Source: Alphaproteobacteria bacterium
GTDB taxonomy: Bacteria > Pseudomonadota > Alphaproteobacteria > Caulobacterales > Hyphomonadaceae
Reading direction: 5' to 3'
Assembly: GCA_018222605.1 (NCBI GenBank)
Contig: JAAEZZ010000004.1
Span: 270,600-334,599 of the forward strand
Length of the DNA stretch: 64,000 nt
Each line of letters begins with the position of its first letter. The first letter of the stretch is position 1. Positions 15,705-19,948 of this stretch are shown one piece after another. The position numbers were made by a program, and so were the translations under genes. Under the pieces are notes generated by a model. That model was not told the DNA's origin. It worked only from the letters and a program-made list of their open reading frames with translations, and searched no databases.

Positions 15705-16895
15705 CTATTCTTGTTCTGCCAGCATACGATAGAGGTAGTAGACGGACACGAAAAGCAGAAAGCCGCTGCCCAGGGCGATCAATGGCCCTGCATAGGATTG
15801 GTTCGCAGCCTGGCCCATCTGGTTTGCAGCTGTGCCGACAAACCGGCGCATCCCGTCATACAGGCCAATCATGCCGAGACCGGCCAGCAAGGCGAACGGC
15901 ACCCAGCGCAAATTGCCCTGCCCCTTGTCAAAGCCAAGCGGGCGATCATCCAGCGGTGGTTCGGCCTTGGCCGGGTCCACATAGATCGGGGCCAGATCAT
16001 CAATCAGGCGGCGGTCTGTTTCCGGCAGGCGCAGAGGTTCCAGGCTCAGCGAGGCATCGAACTCGGGTGTGGACTGGCGTGCCTGGCGGCGGCGCTCTGA
16101 CATGGAAGCAGGCGACGGCGCTTCATTCGTTCCTTCCGGATCAGCCAGCGCAGACACCGCGCGGGTAATCTCGTCCACAGTCGGATCACCGCTCTCCTGT
16201 GCCCCCTGCTCTCCTGAAGCGCGCGAGGCATTCTCCCCAAGGATACGCGTCAGGCGCTCTGCCACGGCGCGGGCTGCGGCTTGCGGCGCCGTCTCCCGAT
16301 CAACCGGACGCGCAGCACGAAGACGGTCTGCTTCAGTTCTTGCCTCGACAATGATGGGTGTTTCACGCGGAACAGCCGGGCCGGAATGCGGGTCACGCTC
16401 CGGACGTACCAGCGCGCCAGGAATGGCTACGGGGCCATTGGGCTGCGATAGGAAGAGCGCAATTTCAGCGGCCCTGCGACGTGCCAGCGCATCAATGATA
16501 CGCGGCTGGCCATCAACACGGCCGCGGCGCCAGCTCATCATGGCTTCGCTTGCCAGAATACGGTCGCCCGAATTCAGACAGGCCAGCACATCGGACGATT
16601 CGAAAGCTTCTGGCCCGATATTGAAGACAAAGGAGGCCAGCGCGTCGAATTCATTCTGGCTGAGCGGCGTGAACACGCAAGTGTACAGAACGTCTTCGAC
16701 CCTTTTGAGATCATGGAAGCGCAGGATCAGCTCGGCATCGAATGCCCCGACGGTCAGGCCGGCGCGTGCGGTTTCGGTATGGCCATACCCAATCAGCCAG
16801 CGTCCATCCGGCAGGCGGCTGGCACGCGCACGGAAGCCTTCGAAGCTCTTGATAAGCTCGACCCCCTTGTCTGATGTGCGCATTTGCCGGGCCAT
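15705..16895 (-). CDS. spmX: SpmX-like polar muramidase homologue (GH24 domain, linker, two C-terminal TM helices)
   Basis: N-terminal GH24 domain VELIKSFEGFRARASRLPDGRWLIGYGHT...TPLSQNEFDALASFVFNIG, long charged/Pro-containing linker, two terminal TM segments: the architecture of Caulobacter SpmX. Confidence 0.82.
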   Translation of the reverse strand: MARQMRTSDKGVELIKSFEGFRARASRLPDGRWLIGYGHTETARAGLTVGAFDAELILRFHDLKRVEDVLYTCVFTPLSQNEFDALASFVFNIGPEAFESSDVLACLNSGDRILASEAMMSWRRGRVDGQPRIIDALARRRAAEIALFLSQPNGPVAIPGALVRPERDPHSGPAVPRETPIIVEARTEADRLRAARPVDRETAPQAAARAVAERLTRILGENASRASGEQGAQESGDPTVDEITRAVSALADPEGTNEAPSPASMSERRRQARQSTPEFDASLSLEPLRLPETDRRLIDDLAPIYVDPAKAEPPLDDRPLGFDKGQGNLRWVPFALLAGLGMIGLYDGMRRFVGTAANQMGQAANQSYAGPLIALGSGFLLFVSVYYLYRMLAEQE

Positions 16896-17003
16896 GCAGC
16901 GGCATCCCATTTTGAAACACTTGGACTTTTAACTACCTGCCAGTGCTGCAAAACTCGCGCCCATTCACCCGAGGGGCGAGAAACAACGAAAAAATCCGTC
17001 TAT

Positions 17004-18529: not shown

Positions 18530-18958
18530 TCAAAGCAGGGCGCGCAAGCCCGCCTTCAAATGCCCCAGACCTTCTTCCCCCAGACGGGTCTCTGTACGAT
18601 TTTGCACGTCCTGCCAGAGCGGATAGGCCTCTTCCAGTCGGCGCACGCCCAGCGTGGTCAACAGCAGACGGCGGCGGCGGCCCTCGCTCTCCTCCCCGCG
18701 GAAAATGAGGCCAGCCTTCTCGAGAGGCTTCAGGTTTCGCGAGAGGGTCGTGCGGTCCAATGCCAGCAGGTCCGCCAGTTCCGAAATCGAGTCCGGCTCA
18801 TAACGGCCCACAGAATTGAGCAAACCAAACTGGGTGACGGTCAGGCCGACAGGGCGCAGCGCATCATCATATTCCCGGGTAATCCTGCGCGCAGCCCTCA
18901 GCAGGCGCCCGGCCGTGCACCGCCCTGTGACATCATCATGGATCGAAGAAGCGCTCAT
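18530..18958 (-). CDS. MarR family transcriptional regulator
   Basis: LTVTQFGLLNSV...ISELADLLALDRTTLSRNLKPLEKAGLI...EGRRRRLLLTTLG. Confidence 0.88.
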   Translation of the reverse strand: MSASSIHDDVTGRCTAGRLLRAARRITREYDDALRPVGLTVTQFGLLNSVGRYEPDSISELADLLALDRTTLSRNLKPLEKAGLIFRGEESEGRRRRLLLTTLGVRRLEEAYPLWQDVQNRTETRLGEEGLGHLKAGLRALL

Positions 18959-18962
18959 AACG

Positions 18963-18972
18963 TGTAGATACA
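18963..18972. promoter_or_regulatory. Candidate operator site TGTAGATACA
   Basis: TGTA-N2-TACA element just upstream of the MarR start. Confidence 0.4.
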
Positions 18973-19045
18973 TGCCCACAGGGAAACTTCAACATGTTCA
19001 GTATTTCTAATGGCAAGAATTCCATGCCCTATCTTGATGAGAACG

Positions 19046-19065
19046 TATAGTGCATATACACTATA
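19046..19065. promoter_or_regulatory. Candidate MarR operator TATAGTGCATATACACTATA
   Basis: 7-bp perfect inverted arms TATAGTG/CACTATA around CATATA in the divergent intergenic region. Confidence 0.55.
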
Positions 19066-19067
19066 AA

Positions 19068-19148
19068 TGTCGTCGCTTTCGTCACTCAGGCGGGTTTCCC
19101 GTAATGCGACGACATAACTACCCCGCCCGGAACCCCACACCGGGCGGG
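19068..19148 (+). ncRNA. Candidate structured leader / small RNA with terminator-like 3' hairpin
   Basis: TGTCGTCGC (19068-19076) pairs with GCGACGACA (19106-19114); CCCGCCCGG (19122-19130) pairs with CCGGGCGGG (19140-19148), then CCTTTTCC. Confidence 0.4.
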
Positions 19149-19181
19149 CCTTTTCCTCCCAATGCGGCAGATCTTTTGTCG

Positions 19182-19191
19182 TGTATATACA
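19182..19191. promoter_or_regulatory. Candidate operator site TGTATATACA
   Basis: Perfect 10-bp palindrome 15 bp upstream of the TPR gene start. Confidence 0.45.
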
Positions 19192-19206
19192 TCAATGGAG
19201 TTTCTC

Positions 19207-19809
19207 ATGCGATCCACCGTCCGCGTCTTCCTCCTCTCCAGCCTGTTCGGGCTGACCGCCACACCGGCCCTCGCCGGACCGGACATCTTCCGCGCTGGCA
19301 CCAGCCCCGCCAGTGAATGCGCCGACGAACTGGCGCGCACTGATGGGGCCTCCCTGCGTTTGCTGCACCTGTGCGACGAAGGCGTAGCCCAGCGAGACCT
19401 GACCGCCCAAGGCCGCGCCGCTGCCCTGGCCAATGCCGGGACGGTACGCCTGCGCCTCGGCAATCTGGAAGAGGCCGTCATCCATCTCTCCAAAGCGCAG
19501 GACCTTGGGGCGCCAAAGGATAGCGTCATCAGCCTGAGCGCCGCCCTGATCCGTCTGGATCGCCCGGACGAAGCCATTGAAGCCCTGTCAAACCTGAATG
19601 GCGTATCCCCCCAGTTGAAGCCGGTAGCCCTGTACAATCGCGCCATGGCACAGATGCAGCGCGACAATGCAAAGGCAGCCTATCTTGATTTGCTGGAAGC
19701 TACGCGGCTCGCACCGGACTACGCGCCCGCACAGGACTTGCTGACGCATTTCACGGTGACGCCTTATCCTGCCACGGCGGCTACTGGAGAAAGCGCCTCA
19801 AGATCCTGA
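19207..19809 (+). CDS. Exported TPR-repeat protein
   Basis: Signal peptide MRSTVRVFLLSSLFGLTATPALA; TPR-like repeats (ALANAGTVRLRLGNLEEAVIHLSKAQ, ALYNRAMAQMQRDNAKAAYLDLLEATRLAPDY). Confidence 0.72.
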   Translation: MRSTVRVFLLSSLFGLTATPALAGPDIFRAGTSPASECADELARTDGASLRLLHLCDEGVAQRDLTAQGRAAALANAGTVRLRLGNLEEAVIHLSKAQDLGAPKDSVISLSAALIRLDRPDEAIEALSNLNGVSPQLKPVALYNRAMAQMQRDNAKAAYLDLLEATRLAPDYAPAQDLLTHFTVTPYPATAATGESASRS

Positions 19810-19863: not shown

Positions 19864-19948
19864 TGGTGCGGTCGAGAGGACTCGAACCTCCACGGGTTGC
19901 CCCACAGCGACCTCAACGCTGCGCGTCTACCAATTCCGCCACGACCGC
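19864..19948 (-). tRNA. tRNA-Leu(GAG)
   Basis: Minus strand GCGGTCGTGGCGGAATTGGTAGACGCGCAGCGTTGAGGTCGCTG...GGTTCGAGTCC...CGACCGCACCA; anticodon loop TTGAGGT; CCA encoded. Confidence 0.95.

Follow-up and report, generated by a model that had tools for sequence, protein, structure and literature searches.

The window, by which the whole stretch of 64,000 nucleotides that was analysed is meant, comes from the genome of a Hyphomonas (G000), whose named relatives are H. beringensis, H. pacifica, H. chukchiensis and H. jannaschiana. At the locus under study, a gene for a MarR-type regulator and a TPR gene lie on opposite strands, and the control region between them holds three putative operators, predicted promoters and a compact element that is predicted to be transcribed as a small RNA. 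The features are the following:

18530-18958, minus strand: marR gene, 142 aa, MarR family winged-helix protein (Pfam MarR_2, PF12802, 47.4 bits against a curated cut-off of 27), orthologues aligned
18962-18972, unstranded: putative operator 1, GTGTAGATACA, overlapping the −10 box of the marR promoter; repeat family D1; kept in 18 genomes
18992-18965, minus strand: predicted marR promoter, −35 TTGAAG (18992-18987) and −10 TATCTA (18970-18965), 16-bp spacer
19034-19060, plus strand: predicted promoter P2 of the RNA, −35 TTGATG (19034-19039) and −10 TATACA (19055-19060), 15-bp spacer; position conserved
19046-19065, unstranded: putative operator 2, TATAGTGCATATACACTATA, overlapping the −10 box of P2
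19067-19155, plus strand: small RNA of about 88 nt, predicted 5' end at about 19066-19069 and 3' end at about 19152-19156
19067-19115, plus strand: hairpin 1, ten pairs (19067-19076 with 19106-19115); 8 of the 9 modelled pairs with double-sided changes
19095-19104, plus strand: conserved loop motif UUUCCCGUAA, probably the pairing region, with complementarity to Shine-Dalgarno-like ACGGRR
19122-19156, plus strand: terminator-like hairpin 2 (19122-19130 with 19140-19148) with short U-run; pairing in 98.8% of cells, double-sided changes in 3 pairs
19181-19191, unstranded: putative operator 3, GTGTATATACA, 16 bp ahead of the TPR start codon, without a conserved −35 box upstream
19207-19809, plus strand: TPR gene, 200 aa, signal-peptide-like N-terminus, Shine-Dalgarno GGAG at 19197-19200 (Pfam TPR_2, 34.6 bits; TPR_1, 29.2 bits)

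All sequences and coordinates that the original prediction had given for 19046-19206 were recovered, including the palindrome that now constitutes operator 2; the operator cores at 18962-18972 and 19181-19191 go beyond it. Directly past the TPR gene lie a tRNA-Leu (gag; 19864-19948, minus strand) and then lipB, and a tRNA is found near the TPR gene in related loci as well. Elsewhere in the window, positions 15705-16910 encode a protein that combines a phage-lysozyme domain (PF00959) with a long C-terminal portion and a hydrophobic end, in otherwise ordinary chromosomal surroundings.

Operators, promoters and the MarR regulator

Operators 1 and 2 are each placed over a promoter-like −35/−10 pair, and their spacing amounts to 88–90 bp in all 18 genomes that possess both, Henriciella included. 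The −35 boxes are kept at nearly fixed distances; that of the marR promoter reads TTGAAG or TTGGAC, and that of P2 is TTGAY in 9 of 19 genomes and TGGAAA or TGGATA in 10 of 19. Operators 2 and 3 are 103–150 bp apart, and given this variation, looping between them at a fixed phase was rejected. As operator 3 lacks a conserved −35 box, the TPR gene would either have a weak promoter there or rely on read-through past hairpin 2; since the U-tract of this hairpin is short, such read-through into TPR is possible. The marR start codon is located a few bases past operator 1 (18958-18972) in all species, so that the marR mRNA probably has no leader or next to none.

Judging by placement and co-inheritance, MarR would bind all three operators. 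A wider operator regulon in the genome was rejected: GTGYATATRCAC occurs in exact form only at operator 2, and allowing for up to one mismatch yields 10 sites, compared with 6 in the reversed control. The closest solved relative of the regulator is the oxidation-sensing MarR protein MosR (Rv1049; PDB 4fx0/4fx4; profile E 1.5e-21). Cys14, which is invariant in the orthologue alignment, aligns with the first cysteine of the MosR ECAC motif, whereas Ala16, equally invariant, takes the place of the second redox cysteine. A MosR-type sensor has a Cys-X-Cys pair where helix 1 begins; the locus MarR contains only the first of these cysteines, so that the Cys10–Cys12 switch of MosR cannot form.

Conservation of the layout and of the RNA fold

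The layout of MarR gene, two-hairpin RNA, TPR gene and three TGYATATRCA operators is present in 16 of 42 Hyphomonas genomes (the query counted) and in part in two more. All 16 carry operator 1, operator 2, both hairpins and operator 3, with the MarR and TPR orthologues side by side. In one genome (G002; locus L021), operator 2, the RNA, operator 3 and TPR are present without an adjoining MarR gene; a MarR encoded at a second site of the same genome (L055), 54% identical to that of the query and accompanied by a similar operator, might take over. Outside the genus, Henriciella mobilis (L084) has the complete layout with a 51% identical MarR and a very different RNA sequence, and its control region was found in none of 60 further Henriciella relatives. 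In H. pacifica (G009; L008, L054 and L081), a deletion has removed the entire control region together with both gene starts, and MarR is frameshifted; the loss of the RNA in this genome accompanies the loss of both neighbours. MarR relatives elsewhere adjoin a gene resembling either an MMPL transporter (L053) or a TonB receptor (L134), names read off the translations alone, and these share the same operator motif but have no such RNA. It follows for the genomes compared that the operator travels with MarR, the RNA being its partner only in Hyphomonas and Henriciella.

The plus strand of 19046-19206 folds at −58.4 kcal/mol, compared with −38.4 ± 3.75 kcal/mol for 200 dinucleotide shuffles, none of which was as low (z = −5.3). 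An RNA on the minus strand was rejected on the basis of a weaker fold (z = −3.2) and of the lack of a U-run following hairpin 2 in that direction. A covariance model (R1), built from 12 species, locates the RNA once per genome and at this locus in 18 genomes, among them five divergent species outside the model set. The query RNA scores 80.0 bits (E 9.6e-18) and is the sole strong match in its genome, where further copies were sought with the same model and only weak matches of about 20–23 bits were obtained, which were taken as chance.

In the 18-sequence alignment, standard pairs make up 91.5% of cells, compared with 80.2% after shuffling and 35–53% when the partner strand is slid; double-sided changes affect 11 of 18 pairs (5.4 in shuffled alignments), and the covariation score is 0.361 (shuffled, 0.170). 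The alignment, which was fitted to the model, leans towards the structure, and given also the relatedness of the species, the covariation figures are not to be read as probabilities. Hairpin 1 contributes the bulk of the covariation, exemplified by G-C, C-G and U-A at columns 6/51. Folded singly, nearly all sequences form these two hairpins as well, and when mapped onto the MarR tree, the pair types fall into at least three separate clades. RNA length varies between about 75 and 105 nt, and the U-run after hairpin 2 comprises only 3–5 U across species, compared with longer U-runs at other hairpins of the window. In most informative genome pairs, the RNA is better conserved than its flanks (e.g., 0.84 versus 0.53 for G005/G002); in the close pairs G041/G035, G041/G036 and G004/G006 it is conserved no better than these.

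As the original prediction had proposed, the two stems were traced through related genomes, where they proved to be both conserved and covarying, which favours structure, and other species show the whole layout, covarying stems included. The 9-bp stem TGTCGTCGC/GCGACGACA (19068-19076 with 19106-19114) is perfect as described but extends to 10 bp, with A19067 pairing T19115; the second stem, CCCGCCCGG/CCGGGCGGG (19122-19130 with 19140-19148), followed by CCTTTTCC, is present as given. On comparative grounds, the hairpins at the locus are real and conserved.

A particular case is provided by the metagenome-assembled genome G028, in which TPR is a 46-codon remnant (189 aa in the sister genome G005) and operator 3 is degraded, while the MarR reading frame is open and operators 1 and 2 as well as the RNA are intact. 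Between these two genomes the RNA is 90% identical and the flanking spacers are 78% and 67% identical; within hairpin 2, a C-G pair has become U-A by changes on both sides. The retention of the RNA despite decay of TPR and operator 3 favours a role of its own for the RNA, for which this case, although a single assembled genome, is the best evidence.

The mini-ORF and the loop motif

According to the original prediction, the element might constitute an attenuator for TPR, of the leader-peptide type or controlled by a ligand, with translation of a 16-codon ORF (MSSLSSLRRVSRNATT, 19067-19117) selecting an antiterminator or a terminator fold. The codon string from ATG to TAA does exist in the query, but it does not by itself attest a gene. 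In H. beringensis (G013) the ORF starts with TTG and has no stop, in G036, G007 and G006 there is no ATG at this position, and between the sisters G003 and G037 a one-base loop insertion shifts the frame. With start and stop lost and a frameshift between sisters, the mini-ORF was rejected as a gene; no coding potential was found in the RNA at all, the ORFs differing, shifting frame or vanishing from species to species. A ribosome-binding site is also lacking, because the predicted transcript begins at the ATG. Likewise, GGCGGG (19089-19094) and CCCGCC (19122-19127) are indeed complementary, but such antiterminator pairing occurs only in G000 and its closest relative, G013. The best fold without hairpin 2 is 8.8–16.8 kcal/mol worse in all 19 genomes, the mean pairing probability of this hairpin being 0.97–1.0, and mutually exclusive folds were found in none of them; a switch of this kind was therefore rejected. 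What favours attenuation, the ORF and the complementary segments, is thus confined to the query sequence, and with the ORF unconserved even between sisters, the antiterminator segment lost and the terminator form favoured, the leader-peptide attenuator can be considered refuted for the genus and is given next to no weight. The second possibility raised at the outset, a MarR-controlled sRNA, has gained support from conservation, covariation, the placement of operators over promoters and an RNA that outlasts a decayed TPR.

In the loop of hairpin 1, CCUCCGUAUG, CCUCCGUUU, UUUCCCGUAA or, in Henriciella, CUCCCGUAUG is kept as the stem letters change. This CUCCGU/UUCCCGU motif is complementary to Shine-Dalgarno sequences; in G000 it is partly paired in the best fold. 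Three tests for targets were negative. With the TPR leaders, no excess of duplex energy over shuffled leaders was seen, and the TPR mRNA was accordingly rejected as a target. Exact loop complements, ATACGGAGGTG (nine genomes) and TTACGGGAAA (two genomes), yielded no common match at a gene start. Matches over longer stretches (L158, L165 and L167) were rejected since they are located in repeat-like DNA, and the one at L165 could not pair in any case, its sRNA-like sequence having the same sense as the neighbouring ORF. Near this repeat-like DNA in G006 and G036, the repeat ATATACATCCGGATACGGAGGTGTCGGAT matches the sRNA loop region over 12–13 bases.

Interpretation, alternatives and known systems

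By comparison, what is conserved is a single-copy predicted RNA with a covarying 5' hairpin bearing a C/U-rich loop, followed by a covarying GC hairpin and a short U-run. Very probably, this is a regulatory RNA that is new and absent from the catalogues, apparently under MarR control, and not a leader peptide. Transcription of the RNA, binding of MarR and the existence of targets are inferred. The interpretation that we prefer, with reasonable though by no means full confidence, is that of a gene for a small RNA controlled by the adjacent MarR-type regulator, with the loop of the RNA most likely pairing with mRNAs elsewhere. In such a scheme, MarR would bind the three operators and repress its own promoter and P2, where the operators lie over the −10 boxes, and would also obstruct transcription immediately ahead of TPR. 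Upon release from DNA, either by a ligand or by oxidation of Cys14, both hypothetical, P2 would produce the RNA, ending at hairpin 2, and some read-through may supply TPR mRNA. The loop would most likely pair with Shine-Dalgarno-like sites of mRNAs encoded elsewhere and change their translation.

Alternatively, the element could be the leader of the TPR mRNA, acting in cis: transcription would start at P2, hairpin 2 would be a partial terminator, the hairpins would set the amount or stability of the mRNA, and the short RNA would be a by-product. The missing −35 box of operator 3, which may leave TPR without a strong promoter of its own, the U-run that is shorter than those of other hairpins in the window, and the position of TPR behind the RNA in all species except G028 speak for this. 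However, the RNA is kept in G028 despite the decay of TPR, neither a competing antiterminator nor a conserved ORF exists in the genomes, and a passive leader needs no conserved unpaired loop motif, which together make a cis-acting leader rather unlikely. That the hairpins serve at the DNA level only, for operator spacing or as a simple terminator, is barely credible; hairpin 2, taken by itself, might be a plain terminator, but hairpin 1 shows double-sided changes along with a kept loop motif, and there is no upstream gene on the same strand for a terminator to end.

A sponge or decoy for another sRNA or a protein, acting without mRNA pairing, would suit the outcome of the target searches and has a precedent in CrfA of Caulobacter, which was once thought to act on mRNA and proved to be a sponge of the aR8 sRNAs (PMC12559287). 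The CrfA site is G/A-rich, though, whereas the loop found here is rich in C and U, as is the side with which known alphaproteobacterial sRNAs bind mRNA, and a sponge therefore seems distinctly improbable. The aR8 sRNAs themselves (SisA-D of Caulobacter; PMC12559287) and anti-Shine-Dalgarno sRNAs such as AbcR share with the locus RNA an unpaired C/U-rich stretch complementary to Shine-Dalgarno sequences. The C/U-rich seed of SisA pairs with G-rich mRNA sites (PMC12559287), but its core, UUUCCUCCCU, is situated outside a strong hairpin loop, in contrast to the motif within hairpin 1. GsrN, the exposed C-rich loop of which pairs with G-rich mRNA sites (PMC5869019), and related alphaproteobacterial sRNAs also have a 5' hairpin with an exposed loop, followed by a terminator hairpin where the locus RNA has its terminator-like hairpin 2, and belong to a related order. 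Nothing beyond C/U-richness is shared with GsrN in sequence, and while GsrN is part of the general stress response governed by sigma-EcfG, P2 lies under a MarR-type operator and the sigma-EcfG promoter GGAAC-N16/17-CGTT is absent from the aligned P2 regions.

The gene arrangement resembles SgrR-SgrS-setA of enteric bacteria (PMC4021124), where a regulator adjoins an sRNA with an intrinsic terminator, a gene of the same regulon follows directly downstream, and the intergenic region between regulator and sRNA is conserved. SgrR, however, belongs to a different family and acts as an activator, the protein SgrT is encoded by SgrS, in contrast to the lack of a conserved ORF here, and the sequences are unrelated. 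Rfam 15 returned no plausible match in the window at E values up to 10 and only tRNA in seven related loci, and a full-text literature search found essentially no sRNA work on Hyphomonas. We file the RNA as a new sRNA family, which may well work like a base-pairing sRNA.

The locus thereby contributes an RNA family from a marine genus that no catalogue contains, and a natural case in which a MarR repressor is coupled to an RNA output. Tentatively, regulator and RNA may together make up the working module, a MarR switch with non-coding RNA as its principal product and with TPR dispensable, by which the signal of the regulator would be converted into translational control of unlinked genes. With operators, promoters, stems and loop mapped, both the signal of the regulator and the targets of the RNA are directly testable.
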